From Bacteroidales bacterium (lineage in GTDB: Bacteria; Bacteroidota; Bacteroidia; Bacteroidales; F082), in assembly GCA_024709145.1 (NCBI GenBank), contig JANJXG010000040.1, positions 1 through 64,000 on the forward strand: a stretch of DNA of 64,000 bases, read 5' to 3'. Below the pieces are notes generated by a model. It saw only the letters and a program-made list of their open reading frames with translations. It made no database searches and was not told the origin of the DNA. The position numbers were made by a program, and so were the translations under genes. Below are positions 1-47,482 of this stretch, one piece after another (positions within the stretch are counted from its first letter, which is position 1; each line of letters starts with the position of its first letter).

Positions 1-1577
1 GGGAAGAATACGTTGTTGGATTTGTAATACTCGTATGAAATACCAGCATTAACAGTATGCTTTCCTGAAAAATAGGTAATGTTGTCAGTGATGTTGAGGG
101 TTGAATAATTGAGTTGGTTTGAAGGAGTGAAAGGATCAAAACCGATCGAAGTATAAGTAGCTTCGCCAGCGGCTGACAGAATGTCGATGGTGGGGAAGAT
201 ATCTGTCCTGTATTCACGATCTTCAATTTGCTTATTATAGGTAGCAATAAAATTGTTAAAGAGTTTTGAATTCACGGTTGAGTTTAACTCCACTGCCACT
301 GAACGGGTGTTGTCCTGGATGATGTAACCAGTATTTTGAGGAGAAATAGCATCGGCACGGTTGGTTCTGTTGCCATTTCCAGCTGTGTTGCTGCTGTTGC
401 TGTCGCTGATTCTTTGATCTGCGTCGGAATCATGGTGTGAGTAACGAACAGACAATTTGTTTTTGTCGTTGATGTTATAATCCAAACGGACCAAAAACTT
501 CATACTATTTACTTCGTTATTAAAACCATCAAGGGCGCCAAGATCGCGGCCAAAGTTGGTTTGCATGAAATTAGCAAGGTCCTGCATATCAGCAAGGGTT
601 GTTCTTGAAACGTTGCCGGTAGCACCTGGTTTATCAAGAACCCAATCGAGAGCTGGCACACTGCTCTTAAACTGTTCGGCATTGAGGAAGAAGAACAATT
701 TGTTTTTGATAATTGGTCCGCCAATGCTTAAACCAAAGGTCTTTTCATCAATATTGACAGTGCCAAGATCTTTTCCGGCAACTTTGTTACCTGCAATTCC
801 ATCATTTCTGAAAAGGAAATAACCTGTGCCTGTGAAGTTATTGGTTCCTGAGCGGGTAACTGCATTGATGCTGGCACCTCCAAAACCTGATTGACGCACG
901 TCAAAAGGAGTGATGTTTAACTGGATTTCTTCAAGAGCATCCAAAGAAACGGCTGTTGTTCCTGTGCGACCTCCGGCCTGACTTGAACTTCCAAGGCCGA
1001 ATCCGTTGTTGAAAACCGAACCGTCGATTGTAAAACTGTTGAACCTTGTGTCTTGACCTGCAAATGAACGTCCATTTCCATAGGCATTGTAGGTGAGAAT
1101 GTCGTTAATGGTACGGCCGATGGTTGGCATCGACATGATATTGTTCTGGTTAAAAGAGGCAGCAGCTCCTGTTCTGTCCGAGCTGAAAACGTCGTTTCTG
1201 TTCGAAACCACTTCAACTTCAGATAGTTCGGTTGAGGCTTCAGCAAGTTTAAAGTTAAGGTTGGCCGAAACACCAAGGCTTAGCATTACATTTTCCTGAA
1301 CTTGCTCTTTGAAACCAACAAAGGATACAGTGACCTTGTAAGGTCCGCCAACACGCATGTTGTTAATAATGTAACGACCTTCTTCATTGGAGATCGTTGC
1401 ATAAACAGTACCAGAGGGTTGATGCACTGCAACGATTGTTGCACCCGGAAGTGATTCTTTGCTTAAGGATTCAACCCTACCATTCATAGCTGAACTTGTA
1501 GAACCTTGTCCCATTGCAAACTGCCAGCCAATTACTAAAATCAGCAACAGCAAACTAAAAAGATAACTCTTTTTCAT
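1..1577 (-). CDS. TonB-dependent receptor, Oar-like (C-terminal part beyond the window)
   Basis: Partial gene: 525 complete codons are visible and the 3' end lies left of the window. The product starts with a hydrophobic signal peptide ([18 protein letters not shown]), then a carboxypeptidase-regulatory-like beta-sandwich (about residues 30-110, with the typical NEEGRYII and VGFKEQ phrases), then a plug-like domain and beta-barrel sequence rich in F/Y/N. The phrase [14 protein letters not shown] is typical of Oar-like receptors of the outer membrane. The start at 1577 is supported by a well-spaced promoter just upstream. The substrate cannot be read from the sequence; Oar-type proteins often handle peptides or proteins or act as surface adhesins (family knowledge). 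No SusD-like partner is visible inside the window. Confidence 0.9.
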
Positions 1578-1869: not shown

Positions 1870-4443
1870 TTATTCACCAAATTGATAGCGTATACCGGCA
1901 TCCAGTGTTCGTCCGAATGACCAAAAGCCTCTAAATGTTTCAAGGTTGTGACCTGAACCATCTTCACCGTTCAAAATATGTTGAGAATTTAACAGGTTGT
2001 TGACATTGCCAAAAAGCATGAAATGCTCTTTCCCAAGCTTGAACGGATACCGGAAACCTGCGTTAGCCAATGTATAGGATGGAAGTCGGTAAGATTGAGC
2101 TCTGTCGTTTGGATTTTGCCTGCCTGAAGGGTCAAACTGCGCGTATTGCCTGTCGGAGTAGATGGCCTCAACAGTCAATTCTAATGTTTTAAAGAGCTTA
2201 AAATCAAGAGCTAATCCGAATTGAAATTGAGGCTGACCACCTGTAAAAAGTCCTTTGGCGTACACATGAACCGTATCAACAGCTATATCTCTGTCATTGA
2301 ATAAAACAGCTGAAACATCATTTTGCCATTTCCAGCTTCCGGTTGAAATATAACCGCGAAGAGATATTTCCGGTGTCAATCCAGCGTTCAACTCAAGTTC
2401 CAGTCCACGATGTAAGGCACTTAGCCCGCTTACCATTGCGCGGGTTTGTGTTTCATTTTCAAGCTGAATGTATTCGTTGGATAAAAATGAAACATCTTCC
2501 CACAGTGTATAGTAGGCTGAAAAGAGTGCCTGCAGATTTCCGGTTCTGTATTGGTAGCCTCCTTCTAGGGTTTTCACTTTTTCGTTTCGGATGTCTTGAA
2601 CCGGTTGATTTGAAAAATTTCCAAATATGAATTTGTAATAAGGAGCTTTGCTGAAAAAGGCAGCATTTAAAAAGACATGTTGTTGATCTGTAAGAAGATA
2701 GCTTATTCCTGTCTTGATGTCAAATCCGGGCTTTGAAACAGTCTCACTCCATTTATTATCAGGATAATTGTACACATCATGCCGTTTAAACCGATTGTCG
2801 GAGCCACTGGCAGACAGAAAGAAATCTGCATGACCAACATTTGTTTCAACTTGAGTAAAAACAGTTGTTTGATGGAGTAGCGCACCATTATGGATCCGGA
2901 TATAATCACCGTTTTTCTTAACTTGTTCACGTCCTGCAACTCCAGCTATCGACCAGCTGTAATCGTCGATATAAAAATTTCCTCCCAATAAATCAGCAAT
3001 CTGCTGCCTCAGATCAGAGCGAAAGAATCTATAATGAATTCCACTCATCCATTTTGTCGATTTTGAAAGCTTTGTTTCATAACTGGAAATAAGGCCGGTC
3101 CAGATATGACTAGCCAAAAAGTTTGTTTGCACTATTTTACTGTAACCATTCACTTTCTCACCGGATGCAAGCGTAAAAGTATCCGTGTTGGAAGCGTTGT
3201 ATCTGTAAATTCCATGCCAATCGATCTGACCTGTTTCGTCCCTGAATTGGTAAAGATTTACATCATAGCCAAGATTATCATGCCATTTTCCCCCTCCTTT
3301 TCCGGGAGAAAAATAGACTGAAGTTGCCAGCATTCCTTCGCTACCAACAGATAAATAATGATTGAGGGCAGCATGTGGCTTGTGGTAAAAGTTTTCGGAG
3401 CTGTTCTGCAACTCGCCATTCAGAACACCCCATTCTTTGTTATATGTCGGCCCGAATTTATCAACCTCAGCCTTGCTTAGTTTAAGATTTCGCTGGCCAT
3501 GTCTCTCCGGTCCTCCCAGAAGGGTAAATATAACTCTTTGACGTTGATTGATTTCCTTACTAATGTTAAAAAAATATGCCCATCCGTCAACATAGGTTCC
3601 GTCAATATAGCCTTCACCAGTTGTACGTGAACCAAGGAAGGAAACAGACCAACCTTTTTCGTTCAGACCACTTTGATAACTAAAGCTAAGTTTTTTGTTA
3701 CCATAGGATGTGGTTGAAAAGTTAAGACTACCGCCGCGAAGCTTTCCCGCGTCAGTTGTGCGGATATTTACCGTACCACCTACTGAGTTCAGTGCAATCT
3801 TTGAGGCACCGATCCCTCGCTGGATTTGGATGTTCGATGCAACTTCTGTTAATCCCATCCAATTGTTCCAATACACAAGACCGTTTTCAGCACCGTTTAT
3901 TGGAACTCCATTAAGAAGCACGGCAATGTTTTCCTGCTCAAACCCTCTGATGCGCAGGCTGGCATCTCCTGAACCACCTCCTTCACGGACAGCGAAAATT
4001 CCTGGAGAAAAATTCATGATTTCAGGCAAGGGCCTGTCACCCAAACCAGTAATGATATGATCCTGACTGATATTTGTGAATGCGATCGGGTTGTATCGTG
4101 CTGTAGCCTGGTCTACCAAAATGTTGATTTCATCCAGATCAATCATTGTTGGAACCATCTCAATGATAAGATTTGAATGTTGTGACGATATTGTTAGTGT
4201 GATCATCTGCGTCTCATAACCAAGGAAGCGAATTTGTATCTGAGTCGGAAACTCAAAAGCTGTTAATGCAAATCGCCCTTCGACATCAGAAATCGTTCCC
4301 CAACCAGATTTATGTTCTTGAAGTGAAACACCTGTCAATGCTTGCCCACTTTGGGAATCAATGACTTTTCCCTGAATCAAATGTTGTGTAAATGCATGAA
4401 GATAAACAAGCAACATGATAATAAGTAGAGTAAATCGTGTCAT
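1870..4443 (-). CDS. TonB-dependent outer-membrane receptor under FMN riboswitch control (predicted flavin importer)
   Basis: 857 residues from the chosen start. A signal peptide (MTRFTLLIIMLLVYLHAF) is followed by a carboxypeptidase-regulatory-like domain (about 20-105), a plug domain (about 115-225; RIRGFEQENIAVLLNGVPI and GASKIALNSVGGTVNI are typical) and a 22-strand-type barrel to the C-terminus (ends IRYQFGE). An in-frame ATG at 4464 lies directly on the U-tract of the riboswitch terminator, so translation more likely starts at 4443, which also gives a proper signal peptide. The FMN riboswitch immediately upstream predicts expression when FMN is low, so the cargo is probably riboflavin or a related flavin taken up with TonB energy. 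That assignment rests on regulation only; the barrel itself gives no ligand. No inner-membrane flavin transporter or rib biosynthesis gene is adjacent. Confidence 0.9.
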   Translation of the reverse strand: MTRFTLLIIMLLVYLHAFTQHLIQGKVIDSQSGQALTGVSLQEHKSGWGTISDVEGRFALTAFEFPTQIQIRFLGYETQMITLTISSQHSNLIIEMVPTMIDLDEINILVDQATARYNPIAFTNISQDHIITGLGDRPLPEIMNFSPGIFAVREGGGSGDASLRIRGFEQENIAVLLNGVPINGAENGLVYWNNWMGLTEVASNIQIQRGIGASKIALNSVGGTVNIRTTDAGKLRGGSLNFSTTSYGNKKLSFSYQSGLNEKGWSVSFLGSRTTGEGYIDGTYVDGWAYFFNISKEINQRQRVIFTLLGGPERHGQRNLKLSKAEVDKFGPTYNKEWGVLNGELQNSSENFYHKPHAALNHYLSVGSEGMLATSVYFSPGKGGGKWHDNLGYDVNLYQFRDETGQIDWHGIYRYNASNTDTFTLASGEKVNGYSKIVQTNFLASHIWTGLISSYETKLSKSTKWMSGIHYRFFRSDLRQQIADLLGGNFYIDDYSWSIAGVAGREQVKKNGDYIRIHNGALLHQTTVFTQVETNVGHADFFLSASGSDNRFKRHDVYNYPDNKWSETVSKPGFDIKTGISYLLTDQQHVFLNAAFFSKAPYYKFIFGNFSNQPVQDIRNEKVKTLEGGYQYRTGNLQALFSAYYTLWEDVSFLSNEYIQLENETQTRAMVSGLSALHRGLELELNAGLTPEISLRGYISTGSWKWQNDVSAVLFNDRDIAVDTVHVYAKGLFTGGQPQFQFGLALDFKLFKTLELTVEAIYSDRQYAQFDPSGRQNPNDRAQSYRLPSYTLANAGFRYPFKLGKEHFMLFGNVNNLLNSQHILNGEDGSGHNLETFRGFWSFGRTLDAGIRYQFGE

Positions 4444-4464
4444 ATGTTGATGATTTATGGTCAT

Positions 4465-4492
4465 AAAAAATGCCCTGCTAAACTTCAGGGCA
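4465..4492 (-). terminator. Intrinsic terminator of the FMN riboswitch expression platform
   Basis: On the minus strand TGCCCTG and CAGGGCA (4486-4492 and 4471-4477) form a 7-bp stem with an 8-nt loop, followed by six U (4465-4470). The 5' side of this hairpin (4483-4493) is perfectly complementary over 11 nt to the 5' edge of the aptamer (4700-4710), giving an alternative antiterminator pairing. FMN binding should hold the aptamer P1 stem, free the terminator and stop transcription. Confidence 0.9.
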
Positions 4493-4591
4493 GATTAATT
4501 ATAACCAAATCACAATTGGGTAATGGCCCAATATGGTTCACTTCATGCTTTGCCATCATGACGGCAAATACAACAGAATCAAGAAATGGTT

Positions 4592-4713
4592 ATTCTTCTT
4601 CCATCCAGACTTTAACTGTCGGTTCCGGATTTACACCGGCTCAATCCTGCTGTTTCCAGCAAGAGTCGCGGACTTTAACCGCCGATCGGGAATTTCACCC
4701 TGCCCTGAAGAAT
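4592..4713 (-). promoter_or_regulatory. FMN riboswitch (RFN element)
   Basis: Read on the minus strand, the segment contains the conserved RFN core in order: AGGGCAGGGTGAAATTCCC, CGGCGGT, AGTCCGCGA, CCGGTGTAAATCCGG, ACCGACAGTTAAAGTC and GGATG. The closing P1 stem is ATTCTTC (4707-4713) pairing with GAAGAAT (4592-4598). All conserved segments are present with the expected spacing, so the aptamer looks intact. It lies between trxB and the TonB receptor and is followed by an intrinsic terminator, so it should act by transcription termination in response to FMN. Confidence 0.97.
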
Positions 4714-4719
4714 ACCTGG

Positions 4720-4727
4720 CAAAATTA
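4720..4727 (-). promoter_or_regulatory. Putative -7 box of the riboswitch transcript
   Basis: TAATTTTG on the minus strand matches the Bacteroidota -7 consensus TAnnTTTG and lies so that transcription would begin right at the P1 stem of the FMN aptamer (about 4713). No clear TTG is found at the -33 position, so the call rests on the -7 box and its position. Confidence 0.6.
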
Positions 4728-4794
4728 CTTAATTTTTATTTCCGTGTTTAAAATCAGAAATTTGGAAAGGTTCTAAATTACTCAATTCGGATTT

Positions 4795-5751
4795 TTACGA
4801 TACGACACCACTCAGTTTGGTTTTTCGCTGATTAATGTATTCCATTGCGTTCAATGCAGCTACTGTACCATCGGCTACTGCAAGGGTGATTTGTCTGTAT
4901 TTTTTTGCAATTGCATCACCTGCAGCAAACACGCCGTCAATATTAGTATGCATGTTCATATCTGCAATGATCTCCTTCCTTTCGTTCAGTTTAATGCATT
5001 TTCCTTGCAAAAAATCAGTGTTGGCTTCATAGCCAATGAATATGAAGACGCCGTCGAGCTTGATCTCTTTTGATGCTTTTGTATGCAGATTTTCAACTGA
5101 AATCGATTCAAGTTTTTCAGTTCCGTTGAAAGAGTTAATACGTGACTGAAGCATTACTTCAATTTTTGGATTATTCCAAACTTCTTCCTCAGCATGTTTA
5201 AAACCCTGAAAATGATCAAACTGATGAATCAGTGTCACTTTTGTTGCGTATTTTGTGAGTGATACAGCCTCTTCCAGAGCACTGTTTCCACCTCCTACGA
5301 CTGCAATTTCCTTGCCTGTGAAAAAATCGCCATCGCAGGTTGCACAATAGGAGATTCCTCTTCCGCGAAATAAGTCTTCCCCCGGAACATTCAAGCTCCG
5401 TGAGCGGCCTCCAGTGGCCAGAATGATGGTATCAGAGGTGTATCTGCTGCCGTTAGAAAGTGAAACTGATTTCGTTTCTGATTCAAAATCAATGGTTTGT
5501 ATTGAAATGCCCGACTTGATGATGCAGCCAAAGTTTTTAGCCTGCAACCTCATGTTGTTGCTAAGCTCATAGCCCGAAATGTGTTCAAATCCAGGGTAAT
5601 TGGCAATTTCGTGGGTTAAAATCATCTGACCCCCTGCAACCCCGGAGTCAAGAATCAAAACCGAGGCTCTTGCTCTTGAAAGGTAGATGCCAGCTGTTAA
5701 ACCTGCTGGTCCGGCACCGATGATAATTGTATCGTAATGTTTGATATCCAT
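4795..5751 (-). CDS. trxB: Thioredoxin reductase (NADPH)
   Basis: 318 residues, the usual length of low-molecular-weight bacterial thioredoxin reductase. It has the N-terminal FAD dinucleotide-binding motif GAGPAG (12-17), the redox-active CATC motif (Cys136 and Cys139), a second nucleotide-binding motif VVGGGNSALEEA (from 151) for NADPH and the C-terminal FAD-binding segment with DGVFAAGDA. The enzyme passes electrons from NADPH to thioredoxin in the cytoplasm. The gene follows a thioredoxin-like gene on the same strand after about 100 bp, and several further thioredoxins lie within 6 kb, which fits the assignment. The FMN riboswitch downstream belongs to the next gene. Confidence 0.93.
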   Translation of the reverse strand: MDIKHYDTIIIGAGPAGLTAGIYLSRARASVLILDSGVAGGQMILTHEIANYPGFEHISGYELSNNMRLQAKNFGCIIKSGISIQTIDFESETKSVSLSNGSRYTSDTIILATGGRSRSLNVPGEDLFRGRGISYCATCDGDFFTGKEIAVVGGGNSALEEAVSLTKYATKVTLIHQFDHFQGFKHAEEEVWNNPKIEVMLQSRINSFNGTEKLESISVENLHTKASKEIKLDGVFIFIGYEANTDFLQGKCIKLNERKEIIADMNMHTNIDGVFAAGDAIAKKYRQITLAVADGTVAALNAMEYINQRKTKLSGVVS

Positions 5752-5808
5752 ATAAATGAAGCTGAAATGGCGTCCAAAAAAAGAAAATATTGCGATGGTT
5801 TATCATTC

Positions 5809-5850
5809 ATGGGCTGCTTGAATGATTGAAACAAGCAGCCCATTATTTTT
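5809..5850 (+). other. 12-bp hairpin between the thioredoxin-like gene and trxB
   Basis: ATGGGCTGCTTG (5809-5820) pairs perfectly with 5832-5843 around an 11-nt loop. The T-rich tract (TATTTTTAA) is on the plus strand, while the flanking genes are on the minus strand. It sits just beyond the stop codon of the thioredoxin-like gene (5853), so it may still define the 3' end of that mRNA or weaken read-through into trxB. Confidence 0.5.
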
Positions 5851-5852
5851 AA

Positions 5853-6203
5853 TTAAGCCTTACCAAACTCACGGTCGAGAATCGTTGTAATTTGATCGCG
5901 GTTTTGGATGCTGCTGGTTGCGGCTGCAACTTTACCGTCCTTAAAATAGACTGTGAAAGGCAGACCCATAAAATTGCGGCACTCAGGTAAATTGCGGATG
6001 ATCGCTGCTTCAGGAGAACCAAACATCATATCGCGGAATGCAACATGGGTGTATTCATCCTGTAACTCGTCCATCACGCCATAAACGGGAATACACATGG
6101 GGCCCATTCTTCCACAGCATACCATCACATTGGATTCGGTGTTGATGAGTTCTGTCAATTCTGCTGCTGTTGCAACATGTTTTAAAGTTGTTGGTAGTAC
6201 CAT
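5853..6203 (-). CDS. Thioredoxin-like protein with a non-standard cysteine motif
   Basis: 116 residues, thioredoxin-sized, no signal peptide. The fold is suggested by the VMVCC strand, the segment after it (PVYGVMDELQDEY), the cis-proline-type strand GLPFTVYFKDGKV and a C-terminal helix. The usual WCGPC is replaced by CCGRMGPMC, with Cys29, Cys30 and Cys37, so the redox pair, if there is one, has an altered spacing. A further Cys lies in PECRNF. It is immediately upstream of trxB on the same strand and is probably served by it or co-regulated with it. It could instead be a non-redox thioredoxin-fold protein. The family was not recognised beyond the fold. Confidence 0.7.
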   Translation of the reverse strand: MVLPTTLKHVATAAELTELINTESNVMVCCGRMGPMCIPVYGVMDELQDEYTHVAFRDMMFGSPEAAIIRNLPECRNFMGLPFTVYFKDGKVAAATSSIQNRDQITTILDREFGKA

Positions 6204-6332
6204 TTTTTTGATCTTTAAATGTTCATAGTTTGACGGGGCAAAGATCAGAAATTATGCCAAATAGTGATACTAAAGCGATTTAATTTTTATATTTATTTCA
6301 ACTGACAATTACACCCATTCTAAAGTATTGTA

Positions 6333-9947: not shown

Positions 9948-9965
9948 CATTGAATCTAATTATAA

Positions 9966-10319
9966 TTAGTTTTTTAGCAATACGTCGTTAATAGCCTGAC
10001 GAAGCGTTTCTTTGGGTAGCGCTCCCATTGCCATTTGGGGCTGTCCGTCTTTGGGACAAAAAAGTAACGAAGGAATACTGCGTATACCGAAAGCTCCGGC
10101 AAGTTCGGTCTGATCTTCAGTATCTATTTTATAGATGTTAATTTTGCCATCATACTCTTTGGAGAGTTCTTCCAAAATGGGAGCAACCATTTTACAAGGT
10201 TGGCACCAATCAGCATAAAAATCGATCAGACATGGCAATTCGCCTTCAAACTTCCAATCTTTATTTTGTTCGTAATTAAATACTTTTGTCAAAAAAGTGT
10301 CTTTTGTTAAATGTTCCAT
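9966..10319 (-). CDS. trxA: Thioredoxin (cytoplasmic)
   Basis: 117 residues with a complete thioredoxin fold: the active site ADWCQPCKMVAP (Cys39, Cys42), the cis-proline in IRSIPSLLF and the glycine-rich C-terminal part. No signal peptide is visible, so it should act in the cytoplasm as a substrate of TrxB, whose gene is about 4 kb away. The active site has Gln in place of the common Gly (CQPC), a frequent variant in this phylum. The gene lies 18 bp downstream of a closely similar lipoprotein thioredoxin gene; the two share phrases such as KEYDGK, IYKID and RSIPS, so they are a tandem duplication with separate cell addresses. Confidence 0.93.
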   Translation of the reverse strand: MEHLTKDTFLTKVFNYEQNKDWKFEGELPCLIDFYADWCQPCKMVAPILEELSKEYDGKINIYKIDTEDQTELAGAFGIRSIPSLLFCPKDGQPQMAMGALPKETLRQAINDVLLKN

Positions 10320-10337
10320 TTTATATAAATTTAGGTA

Positions 10338-10820
10338 TTATTTCTTATTAACTAATTGTTCATCAATAATTTGACGATACATTTCTTCAGTAAGTGCTCC
10401 AGCCTGCATCATTGGTTGTCCGGTTTTGGGAATAAACAGGATGCTTGGAATGCTTCTCACCTGAAATACACCGGCAAGTTTTTGTTCTTTGTCGACATCA
10501 ATCTTATAGATTTTAAGTTTACCATCATATTCTTTTGCAAGCTTATCCATTATTGGAGCAATTTTGCGACAGGGTGCACACCAATCGGCATAAAAATCAA
10601 CGATAGCTGGAACATCACCAACAAAAACAAAGTTTTGTGGATTGGTTTCAAAATTCCACACCTTTTCGATAAACGTTTCATAGGTGAGATATTCTATAAG
10701 TCCTCCCTCTTTCGAAACGGAAGTAGATGGTTTGGTTTCAGCTTGTTTACCTGTTGTGTTGGAACAGGCTGTTGTTAAGACGATAACGGCTGTAAAGGCA
10801 AGAAGAATGTTTTTGATCAT
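10338..10820 (-). CDS. Lipoprotein thioredoxin (periplasm-facing)
   Basis: 160 residues. The N-terminus is a lipoprotein signal peptide with lipobox LTTAC (Cys19), then a Ser/Thr/Lys-rich linker of about 20 residues and a thioredoxin domain with ADWCAPCRKIAP (Cys81, Cys84) and a cis-proline in VRSIPSILF. It is thus probably tethered to a membrane facing the periplasm and acts in disulfide reduction or exchange there. It is the first gene of a two-gene unit with the cytoplasmic thioredoxin downstream (18-bp gap), to which it is clearly related. Its electron donor cannot be read from this locus. Confidence 0.9.
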   Translation of the reverse strand: MIKNILLAFTAVIVLTTACSNTTGKQAETKPSTSVSKEGGLIEYLTYETFIEKVWNFETNPQNFVFVGDVPAIVDFYADWCAPCRKIAPIMDKLAKEYDGKLKIYKIDVDKEQKLAGVFQVRSIPSILFIPKTGQPMMQAGALTEEMYRQIIDEQLVNKK

Positions 10821-10844
10821 GTGTTTACAAGGTTAAATTTCGGG

Positions 10845-10852
10845 CAAAAATA
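10845..10852 (-). promoter_or_regulatory. Putative -7 box of the tandem thioredoxin genes
   Basis: TATTTTTG on the minus strand, about 25 nt before ATG 10820. There is no clear -33 TTG at the expected distance. Confidence 0.45.
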
Positions 10853-10883
10853 AAAATTAAATCGCTTTATTATCACTTTTTTT

Positions 10884-10891
10884 TAATTTTG
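10884..10891 (+). promoter_or_regulatory. Putative -7 box of the zinc-ribbon gene
   Basis: TAATTTTG on the plus strand, 12 nt before the ATG at 10903. No clear -33 TTG is found. Confidence 0.4.
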
Positions 10892-10902
10892 CCTCAAATT
10901 TT

Positions 10903-11352
10903 ATGCCACAATCATTTCTTTCAAAACAAATGGATTTTAACACGAAAACAAGTAAAATAGATGTTGAGGATGAGGAGCCATTCCTAAAAATGCTTGCAGA
11001 CCATAAATGGAAGGATGGATTTGTGTGCAGGAAATGTGGCCACGACAACTATTGCAAAGGGAAGAAGCCCCATTCCCGTAGGTGTACAAGGTGTAAGACA
11101 GAAGAATCAGCTACAGCCAATACTATTTTTCACCGATGCAAAATGCCTTTGAATGAGGCTATTGACCTGGCTCGCCTGGTGTGCCTTCAGCCCGGAATAT
11201 CAACCTACGAACTTTCGCGGCAGATGGATCGCAGGCAAATGACTTGTTGGAAGTTTAAGGTTAAAATATTGGAGTGTCTGGAAAGCCCTGACAAAGTGTC
11301 TGTTCTTAAACGTTTTCTTGATCATCAAGATAGTTCTGCTGACATTTCCTGA
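10903..11352 (+). CDS. Stand-alone transposase-type zinc-ribbon protein (IS1595-like N-terminal domain)
   Basis: 149 residues. The centre has two CxxC pairs (CRKCGH and CTRCK, spaced about 20 residues) forming a zinc ribbon of the kind found at the N-terminus of IS1595/ISXO2 transposases, followed by the helical segment that normally links it to the DDE domain (ANTIFHRCKMPLNEAIDLA, then STYELSRQM). The DDE catalytic domain is absent: the frame stops where it would begin, and the next gene lies 7 bp away on the other strand. No terminal inverted repeats or target duplication are visible. It may be a transposase remnant or a domesticated DNA-binding protein; its intact frame and own promoter box favour the latter. 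Confidence 0.75.
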   Translation: MPQSFLSKQMDFNTKTSKIDVEDEEPFLKMLADHKWKDGFVCRKCGHDNYCKGKKPHSRRCTRCKTEESATANTIFHRCKMPLNEAIDLARLVCLQPGISTYELSRQMDRRQMTCWKFKVKILECLESPDKVSVLKRFLDHQDSSADIS

Positions 11353-11358
11353 CAAAGG

Positions 11359-11784
11359 TTATTTGCACCATCTGGTATATTCGTTGGTATTCGGTCTTCC
11401 AAGCGCTTCAGCCTTAAGGTAGTAGAAGCAAGCCGTTTTTCGGTCCTGCAAATAGTCATAAATCGAAGCGATGTTAAAATAAGCATCTGCATATTCTGGG
11501 TTTAACTCGATGGCTTTTTTGTAATCCTCCAAAGCCCCCTCCACATTTTTGAGGTTTCTCTTGCAGGCAGCTCTGTAATAATGGGCTTCGGCTGACCTTG
11601 GATTATACTTAACTGCTTTCTCCAATTCAGCCAAAGCCTGTTCATGTCTGGCTTGATAAATGAAATCAACACCACGATCCAAATGTAACCTCGATTTGTT
11701 TTCGTTCACACCACAACCTATCAGAAGCAAACTTAAACAGAGCATTATTGTAAGTGAAATCGTGGTATAAGTATATTTTTTCAT
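11359..11784 (-). CDS. TPR-repeat lipoprotein
   Basis: 141 residues with a lipoprotein signal peptide ending in LIGC (Cys24) and about three tetratricopeptide repeats (AEAHYYRAACKRNLKNVE, then ALEDYKKAIELNPEYADAYF and the following helix pair). Such small TPR lipoproteins serve as protein-protein interaction modules at the envelope; the partner is not known. It is the last gene of a leftward run that starts at dapF, 13 bp after the phosphohexomutase gene, so it is probably co-transcribed. Confidence 0.85.
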   Translation of the reverse strand: MKKYTYTTISLTIMLCLSLLLIGCGVNENKSRLHLDRGVDFIYQARHEQALAELEKAVKYNPRSAEAHYYRAACKRNLKNVEGALEDYKKAIELNPEYADAYFNIASIYDYLQDRKTACFYYLKAEALGRPNTNEYTRWCK

Positions 11785-46579: not shown

Positions 46580-47482
46580 TTATTTTTTTAAAACCAAGCG
46601 CCGGACATCCGGGCCAAATTGTTGAAGTAAGATTCCTGAAACGATCAGGATCAATCCCAGAACGGTACTGGGTAGAATGGGTTCGCCAACGAAAAGCCGT
46701 ATAAAAAAGAGCGCAATAAAGGGCGATAAAAAAATCAAGTTGCTGACTCTTGCTGTGTTGGCTGCTTTTTTGAGTGCCAGAAGCCAAAAAACAAATGTAA
46801 TCCCCATTTCGAATAAACCAATGTACCCGGCTCCAATCAGTGCTTTGCTTCCGGGTAGTTTAATTCCGGATGTAATTAACAGATAAAGTGTTATATAGGC
46901 ACCTCCAAAAACCATATTCATGAAAATTTTTACCAAAGCCTCTCTTTTATCTTTCAGGTTGATTATCCAGTAGAGCGCCCACAAAAAGGCACTGCCCACT
47001 GCCAACGTTACGCCGTACGCATTGCTAAATTCCAATGAAAAAACCTGACCCTTTGTGCTGATAACCCAGAGACCGGCAAAACTTGTCAGGATTGCCGTAA
47101 ATCCAATAATTCCAATGCGTTGACCCAGTAGTGGCACAGACAATATGACCAAAATCACCGGCCAGCTGTAGTTAAGTACTCCGGCTTCCTGAGCCTGAAG
47201 CAATTCATAAGCTTTAAATAACACGAGGTAGTAGGCAAAGGGATTCAGGAAACCCAGGATGGCAGATAGCAGGATTTCTTTTTTTGACTGCGCGAGAACT
47301 TTTTGGTATCCGGTTAAAATCAAAACAAGAAAACCAAGAGCAAACACTGCAAACAATGAAGACCAGAATAAAAGCTGGTCGAAAGCAATGTGGTTAAGTG
47401 TTAGCTTAAAAGCTGAGCTCATTGTCGACCAGAAAGCCACAGCCAGCAATGCGAAAAATATAGATTGATGTGATTTTTTCAT
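46580..47482 (-). CDS. EamA/DMT-family transporter
   Basis: 300 residues with about ten hydrophobic segments arranged as two EamA repeats of five helices each, beginning IFFALLAVAFWSTMSSAFKL; the pattern AYELLQAQEAGVLNYSWPVI is typical of the drug/metabolite transporter superfamily. The substrate is unknown; relatives export amino acids or other small metabolites. It is the first gene of a two-gene unit with the inositol-phosphatase-like gene. A -7 box lies right at the start codon, so the mRNA may be almost leaderless. Confidence 0.9.
   Translation of the reverse strand: MKKSHQSIFFALLAVAFWSTMSSAFKLTLNHIAFDQLLFWSSLFAVFALGFLVLILTGYQKVLAQSKKEILLSAILGFLNPFAYYLVLFKAYELLQAQEAGVLNYSWPVILVILSVPLLGQRIGIIGFTAILTSFAGLWVISTKGQVFSLEFSNAYGVTLAVGSAFLWALYWIINLKDKREALVKIFMNMVFGGAYITLYLLITSGIKLPGSKALIGAGYIGLFEMGITFVFWLLALKKAANTARVSNLIFLSPFIALFFIRLFVGEPILPSTVLGLILIVSGILLQQFGPDVRRLVLKK

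Follow-up and report, generated by a model that had tools for sequence, protein, structure and literature searches.

The riboswitch and the receptor gene

The window analysed here, a stretch of 64,000 nt that opens Bacteroidales contig JANJXG010000040.1, comes from a 3.8-Mb genome in 148 contigs that is 99.35% complete, and carries on its minus strand a flavin mononucleotide (FMN) riboswitch ahead of a gene for a TonB-dependent receptor (TBDR). Read along that strand, the locus holds a gene for an NlpC/P60 protein, a gene for a 116-aa protein, trxB, the FMN aptamer, an intrinsic terminator, the TBDR gene and part of a gene for a second, Oar-like TBDR. The aptamer (RFN element, Rfam RF00050) is matched by cmscan at 4716..4589 over the full model (1-138) with 115.6 bits (E 3.1e-26; gathering score 66.2), which bears out the complete RFN aptamer that a first-pass annotation had placed at 4592-4713 and extends its bounds slightly. 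It is the sole Rfam match over the gathering score in the 64 kb, and the single FMN riboswitch match in the whole source genome.

Between aptamer and receptor gene, the terminator earlier read at 4465-4492 and its perfect 11-nt complement to the 5' edge of the aptamer are both present. The terminator (4465..4493, minus strand) has a stem of seven pairs, five of them GC, at 4492-4471 around an 8-nt loop, followed directly by TTTTTT at 4470-4465, and its hairpin folds at -12.4 kcal/mol. The competing arm, 4483-4493, is an exact 11-nt complement of 4700-4710, the aptamer 5' strand (P1 plus the AGGGC segment) and a possible left half of an antiterminator; none of 200 leader shuffles equalled this match. 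Pairing of the two arms yields -25.8 kcal/mol, more than the terminator hairpin gains by itself, which fits an antiterminator disrupted by FMN through closure of the base helix. From these pairings the expression platform appears to be coupled to the base helix of the aptamer, and FMN-dependent termination is the likely mode of control: at low FMN the aptamer 5' strand would pair with the 5' arm of the terminator, allowing read-through and synthesis of the receptor, and at high FMN P1 would close, releasing the terminator and ending transcription before the gene. Among 23 leaders in which an RFN precedes a TBDR gene (RFN-TBDR), 19 have a terminator-like hairpin, 15 a complement to the aptamer 5' strand on the 5' arm of that hairpin, and 10 a complement longer than shuffle expectation (p<0.05); the same three counts are 10, 6 and 7 for 16 ribD leaders and 1, 1 and 3 for 8 ribB leaders. 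At locus L105 (2667-2760), between RFN and receptor and overlapping the terminator region, there is a sub-threshold match to the trpB motif RF04312 (44.1 bits, gathering score 59), probably by chance.

The open reading frame of the receptor (4464..1870, minus strand) encodes 864 aa with an N-terminal carboxypeptidase-regulatory-like domain (CarbopepD_reg_2, PF13715), a Plug domain (PF07715) and the TonB_dep_Rec beta-barrel (PF00593), all over the Pfam cut-off, and so contains the plug and barrel of a TonB-dependent transporter. Its first ATG, at 4464, abuts the T run of the terminator. Because the 12 closest homologues align only from query residue 7-16, the true start is more probably the ATG at 4443, which gives a gene at 1870..4443 and a product of 857 aa whose N terminus looks, by eye, like a signal peptide; also by eye, the motif DLDEINIL between the N-terminal domain and the plug resembles a TonB box. 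The protein falls short of the SusC/RagA model TIGR04056 (54.5 against 368.25 bits) and of the BtuB models TIGR01779 and NF007926 (36 and 28.9 against 599.7 and 836 bits), and no SusD was found among the downstream genes given to Pfam, a scan that covered part of the neighbours. A structure model of middling quality, built from 11 sequences (predicted local confidence, pLDDT, 66.8; predicted template-modelling score, pTM, 0.65; pLDDT below 50 in much of the plug), matched only TBDRs among the hits listed in fold searches. Foldseek placed PqqU/YncD with pyrroloquinoline quinone (PQQ; PDB 9c4o) first, at E 8.3e-27. A second structural aligner put BtuB first at Z 25.6, with 50 matches within 2.4 Z; there PqqU scored 23.6, level with many siderophore receptors, so we dropped it as a meaningful closest fold and take from it no hint of the cargo. 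The predicted fold supports the TBDR family and says nothing on cargo.

Receptor or synthesis genes behind one switch

We compared 198 genomes of the order, for which the protein search scored at most four candidates per genome and the best ones were listed. RFN matches occur in 41, in 40 of them over the cut-off and once per genome; G136, at 26.6 bits and below the cut-off, is excluded from the RFN counts. The first-pass annotation had proposed looking for RFN elements upstream of receptor homologues, and among the matches listed all 12 homologues of at least 550 residues and at least 41% identity lie directly behind the RFN of their own genome, as do two further homologues at 36% (G050:C68 and G126:C40); a further G046 receptor, which matches locally at 46% across 162 residues, is not counted here. 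A collection of named genomes adds 10 relatives, from assemblies labelled Bacteroidales, Bacteroidetes or Bacteroidia and, in one case, Lentimicrobiaceae: seven have an RFN over the cut-off, one (L068) has an aptamer cut short by the end of its contig, which at 59.9 bits stays below the cut-off, and two (L066, L067) lie on contigs that begin inside the gene, where an RFN is unscorable. A vitamin riboswitch directly upstream of this TBDR gene thus appears to be conserved among its relatives.

What follows the RFN divides the sampled genomes cleanly by the presence of RibH. Scoring RibH as PF00885, and as RibH-less those genomes outside the list of PF00885 matches, we found no RibH match in 38 of the 198 genomes. 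The RFN precedes a TBDR gene in 16 of the 40 genomes, all 16 RibH-less, and rib genes in the other 24 (16 ribD operons, 8 ribB or ribBA), all with RibH; the two sets make up exactly the 40 RFN elements, with no exception. Within the ribD operons, RibH lies 3-4 kb behind the aptamer in 16 of 16 and RibB in 15 (the rib genes of G186, G195, G110 and G080 were assigned from Pfam; RibD was recognized by Pfam in G110 only, and RibD and RibE elsewhere were named by eye). RibB (PF00926), tested in 37 genomes, is matched in 0 of 15 RFN-TBDR genomes and in 22 of 22 with an RFN before rib genes (RFN-rib), and RibF is present in all 15 RFN-TBDR genomes tested, G148 standing outside both tests. The comparison with synthesis genes proposed in the first-pass annotation therefore comes out in its favour, RibH and, where tested, RibB being unmatched wherever the RFN precedes the receptor. 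An RFN-TBDR pair occurs in 16 of 38 RibH-less against 0 of 160 RibH-containing genomes (Fisher p 1.6e-13, uncorrected for descent); by family, 13 have the receptor and 19 the rib genes behind the switch, and three (f1, f9, f77), the window's own family among them, have both. Across a phylum-wide sample of 395 genomes there are 28 RFN elements over the cut-off, the source genome included, and the nine inspected among the other 27 all precede ribB- or ribD-operon-like genes (Pfam on three). Four genomes without RibH and RibB (G124, G005, G158, G119) have two matches each to RibF-type FAD synthetase.

Nearly all of these genomes are drafts, the source genome itself lying in 148 pieces, and the rib genes might have been lost to incompleteness, or the linkage created by chimeric contigs. 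We find such an artefact hardly conceivable: the source genome is nearly complete, completeness reaches 90% or more in 14 of 15 receptor genomes, RibF was found in every one of the 15, and the linkage recurs in eight separately named assemblies. The absence of RibH and RibB matches, with RibE outside the search, could also be read as import of a riboflavin precursor such as 6,7-dimethyl-8-ribityllumazine, which a remaining RibE would convert. This we consider very unlikely, since RibB and RibH at 0 of 15 imply that most of the pathway is gone, and free lumazine is not known as a usual nutrient.

Two genomes of one genus show the change of genes at a single site. Both G180 and G076 have an NlpC/P60 homologue upstream, the proteins being 80% identical, followed by 94 nt at 94% identity and then by a 155-nt stretch, 91% identical, in which the aptamer lies. 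Behind the aptamer, G180 has 3.6 kb with ribDEBAH and G076 has 2.8 kb with the receptor; these payloads are dissimilar except for a 217-nt receptor match to a second, downstream receptor, and beyond them the two genomes resume similarity over 2.06 kb at 89%. RibH and RibB are both matched in G180 and neither is in G076. The flank of the window tells a similar story: in G099, homologues of its 116-aa gene (73%; window 5853..6203, minus strand, a conserved protein with no Pfam match) and of its trxB (60%; window 4795..5751, minus strand, thioredoxin reductase, TIGR01292 at 347.7 bits against a cut-off of 343.45) stand directly before an RFN that is followed by a rib operon. Farther upstream, the window's NlpC/P60 gene (6333..7115, minus strand, PF00877) likewise has counterparts at both RFN-TBDR and RFN-rib loci, a homologue ending no more than 280 nt from the aptamer in 7 of the 40 RFN loci, two of these seven being RFN-rib. 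The similar flanks and aptamer in G180 and G076, and the flank in G099, suggest that switch and neighbourhood were kept while the payload changed. The direction may have been from synthesis to uptake, loss of synthesis being the usual course. The locus L096 (G117:C7), with an RFN at 2501-2625, a rib operon, and a receptor of the sister group described below at 9953-11425, 7.3 kb downstream, is a possible intermediate of such an exchange.

More than one receptor lineage seems to have taken this position. A tree of 45 receptors, rooted at the midpoint only, has a branch with 100/100 support that sets 24 receptors apart, 21 with an RFN and three unlabelled, including L068 with its partial aptamer; G126 falls inside this RFN group on a long branch (93/94), a less sure placement. 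On the other side are 17 receptors without an RFN, that of G050 with one, that of G117 behind its RFN-rib operon, and the second receptors of G076 and G180. Thirty-five alignment columns are kept in the RFN-group receptors and differ in the sister group. The loci of the 17 sister receptors show no Rfam riboswitch (L052, from G044, has almost no upstream DNA), and 15 of their 17 genomes, G044 among them, lack an RFN altogether. The first-pass annotation had allowed that homologues lacking RFN elements and co-occurring with other substrate genes would tell against its reading. Homologues without an RFN beside other genes were met only in this sister group, none of them more than 36% identical and 15 of 17 in RibH-containing genomes. 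A further case is the RibH-less genome G148 (L087, G148:C157), where an RFN at 2501-2620 is followed by an Oar-like receptor gene at 2755-3258, read for 168 aa before the contig ends; across 156 residues it shares 42% identity with the Oar-like gene that lies downstream at other loci. Because G050 is separate in the tree and G148 has an Oar-like receptor behind its RFN, three receptor lineages, the main group, G050 and the Oar-like receptor of G148, appear to have come under RFN.

These patterns also bear on the idea that the receptor imports an unrelated cargo such as iron, a glycan or a peptide, FMN control serving for example a flavin-dependent use of that cargo. The fold is blind to substrate, with BtuB, PirA, FoxA, FhuA and PqqU within about 2 Z units of one another, and would accommodate this. 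However, an unrelated cargo accounts neither for the split between genomes with and without RibH nor for the exchange in place, and would require the same course in three receptor lineages; we regard it as unlikely.

Neighbouring genes, cargo and the inner-membrane step

Behind the receptor, the window ends in the first 525 aa of the Oar-like TBDR gene (1577..3, minus strand), cut at the contig start; a member of the downstream Oar-like cluster, in G103, has Pfam domains PF25183 and PF13620. Across 24 receptor neighbourhoods, the source included, several contigs end early and counts are lower bounds: an Oar-like TBDR follows in at least 12, a type I phosphodiesterase in at least 9 (one a fragment), PhoD in at least 4 and GDPD in at least 2 (Pfam was run on two members of the phosphodiesterase cluster and one each of PhoD and GDPD). 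The window locus probably continues on contig C95 of the same genome (L181, 1-5798), since C95 opens inside an Oar-like gene; it encodes the last 557 aa of that protein, then GDPD, a phosphodiesterase (nucleotide pyrophosphatase), PhoD and PAP2. We left the two contigs unjoined.

Such phosphodiesterases can cut flavin adenine dinucleotide (FAD), and a phosphodiesterase with a phosphatase could free riboflavin from it, which we treat as only a lead. The true cargo might on this account be FAD or FMN, the secreted-looking downstream enzymes cutting FAD before or after uptake, and the recurrence of phosphodiesterase, PhoD and GDPD behind the receptor, with all three plus PAP2 on C95, speaks for it. 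Against it, a phosphodiesterase of the same cluster lies near RFN-less receptors in the RibH-containing genomes G099 (L182), G040 (L183) and G067 (L187); homologues (E <1e-90) turn up in RFN-rib genomes (10 of 24) nearly as often as in RFN-TBDR genomes (10 of 16); the Oar-phosphodiesterase pair sits on a contig apart from the RFN in G098 and G158; and the sequence available behind the receptor shows no phosphodiesterase in G158, G119, G005, G124 and L063. FAD or FMN as cargo is a possibility we take seriously and yet doubt, and the candidacy of the phosphodiesterase and PhoD as flavin-specific genes is weakened by their presence beside RFN-less receptors and in RFN-rib genomes. In G040 PhoD, too, lies near the RFN-less receptor, and in G040 and G099 a protein of 642-665 aa (DUF5017 in G099) is encoded between receptor and phosphodiesterase.

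Flavin that reaches the periplasm would need a carrier in the inner membrane, and one lineage offers a candidate. In the 1.5-Mb genome G126 (L075, G126:C40), an RFN at 2501-2621 and the receptor gene at 2623-4983 are followed by a gene for a nucleoside/H+ symporter (PF03825) at 5007-6311, which begins 24-51 nt behind the RFN receptor. As a general partner the symporter was rejected: it is found in 14 of 40 genomes, the source genome not among them, and of the 13 besides G126, G195 has it some 1.5 Mb from the RFN and the rest have it on a different contig. Eight of the 14 symporter loci gave no Rfam family, but the stretches scanned were short and failed to take in even the RFN that G126 is known to have. 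Elsewhere an ABC ATPase gene lies 258 nt behind the receptor (G158) and an MFS-like gene, judged by eye, farther behind it (G124, G005); none of the transporters neighbouring the receptor in these four genomes recurs among the neighbourhoods. ECF-type RibU (PF12822) was found in 0 of 20 genomes. PnuC/PnuX (PF04973) was found in 17 of 20 but not in the source genome, and we rejected both as partners; since the four PF04973 loci inspected (L135, L137, L142, L145) have an adjoining ATPase gene that is NadR-kinase-like by eye (Pfam AAA_28 in L135) and 12 such loci show no Rfam riboswitch, we read them as nicotinamide-riboside transporters. Within the window, an EamA-type permease gene (PF00892) lies at 46580-47482, with no flavin link seen.

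Taken together, the linkage and the RibH/RibB split strongly suggest what the first-pass annotation had proposed, that a TBDR under an FMN switch is an outer-membrane flavin importer, and we put at roughly 85% the probability that the receptor is a riboswitch-repressed, TonB-driven importer of riboflavin-auxotrophic Bacteroidales. In such an organism a flavin, most probably riboflavin, would cross the outer membrane through the TBDR, pass from the periplasm through an inner-membrane carrier and be made into FMN and FAD by RibF, closing the regulatory loop; in evolution, the receptor would have taken the place of the riboflavin operon and kept its switch. The sequences themselves show the aptamer, the terminator and its complement, the receptor family and its linkage to the RFN, the missing RibH and RibB matches, RibF, and the operon-receptor exchange inside one genus; from these we infer the ligand response, the cargo, the dependence on TonB, the inner-membrane step and the direction of the exchange. 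Several points weigh on the other side. Riboflavin is small enough for porins, so that active uptake is not strictly required. No RFN-receptor is present in 22 of the 38 RibH-less genomes, and other routes must therefore exist. The loss of synthesis is judged from RibH and RibB, the two pathway proteins searched genome-wide; the leader scan found no terminator in 4 of 23 RFN-TBDR leaders and no 5'-arm complement in 8 of 23; and the source genome has no match to PF12822 or PF04973, the two families searched as inner-membrane flavin carriers. Lastly, the transcript of OMthi, the thiamine receptor discussed below, is nearly constant with thiamine, and deletion of OMthi alone had no effect, according to the available part of PMC5613172; an adjoining riboswitch is therefore no guarantee of strong control. 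With these points in mind, it still seems to us quite probable that Bacteroidales without riboflavin synthesis have repeatedly, in three receptor lineages, placed an importer behind the synthesis switch by in-place cassette exchange, and that these importers form the first class of TonB-dependent flavin receptors.

Relation to known vitamin receptors and FMN regulons

If the importer reading is right, its interest extends beyond this locus. Dissolved riboflavin in natural waters is tabulated at 0.2-5 pM in the available part of PMC7609354, dilute enough for active capture to be worthwhile, and the reading bears on how Gram-negative auxotrophs take flavin across the outer membrane. With the RFN-receptor pair as a genetic marker, riboflavin auxotrophs could also be recognized in metagenomes, and the order would provide a natural experiment in which a sensor was retained and the function behind it exchanged.

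The FMN riboswitch regulons described in the available parts of PMC3766115, PMC4418817 and PMC6593275 use the same aptamer and share with the RibH-containing genomes studied here their rib operon and ribB targets. Their other targets are transporters, and the riboflavin transporters they name act at the inner membrane; here, by contrast, the target is an outer-membrane receptor. PMC3766115, in the part available, names transporters besides rib genes as targets of FMN control and reports Bacteroidaceae to lack FMN riboswitches. None of the three main texts contains the word 'TonB', and that of PMC4418817 does not use 'outer membrane' either; a review of substrates of TonB-dependent transporters (PMC11658791) mentions neither riboflavin nor flavin; and the available parts of PMC6041382 and PMC5816637, which hold both 'FMN riboswitch' and 'TonB', describe no flavin TBDR. 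Within the open-access literature, a scope that leaves out most subscription journals, we found no earlier report of an RFN-controlled flavin TBDR.

The nearest parallels are other vitamin receptors. OMthi (BT2390), the thiamine TBDR, likewise has a vitamin riboswitch near its gene and obtains a cofactor vitamin, as given in the available parts of PMC5613172 and PMC5317091; it differs in the vitamin and in the riboswitch, and the likeness is one of arrangement and function, drawn here apart from any comparison of sequence. Its loss in a thiamine-synthesis mutant raised the need for thiamine about tenfold (PMC5613172, in part), and receptors linked to thiamine pyrophosphate (TPP) riboswitches appear also in the available part of PMC10409787. 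Bacteroides thetaiotaomicron, however, also keeps TPP-switched thiamine synthesis, whereas receptor and synthesis genes behind the RFN are mutually exclusive in the genomes compared here. BtuB, the vitamin B12 receptor, is likewise a riboswitch-linked vitamin TBDR, under cobalamin-riboswitch control according to the available part of PMC5317091; it is about 15% identical to the receptor of the window, which has the extra N-terminal CarbopepD_reg_2 domain. PqqU/YncD is also a TBDR for a redox cofactor, PQQ, at 13% identity. A vitamin riboswitch joined to a TBDR is thus a known arrangement; what would be new here is the vitamin, and the striking way in which uptake takes the place of synthesis behind a single switch.

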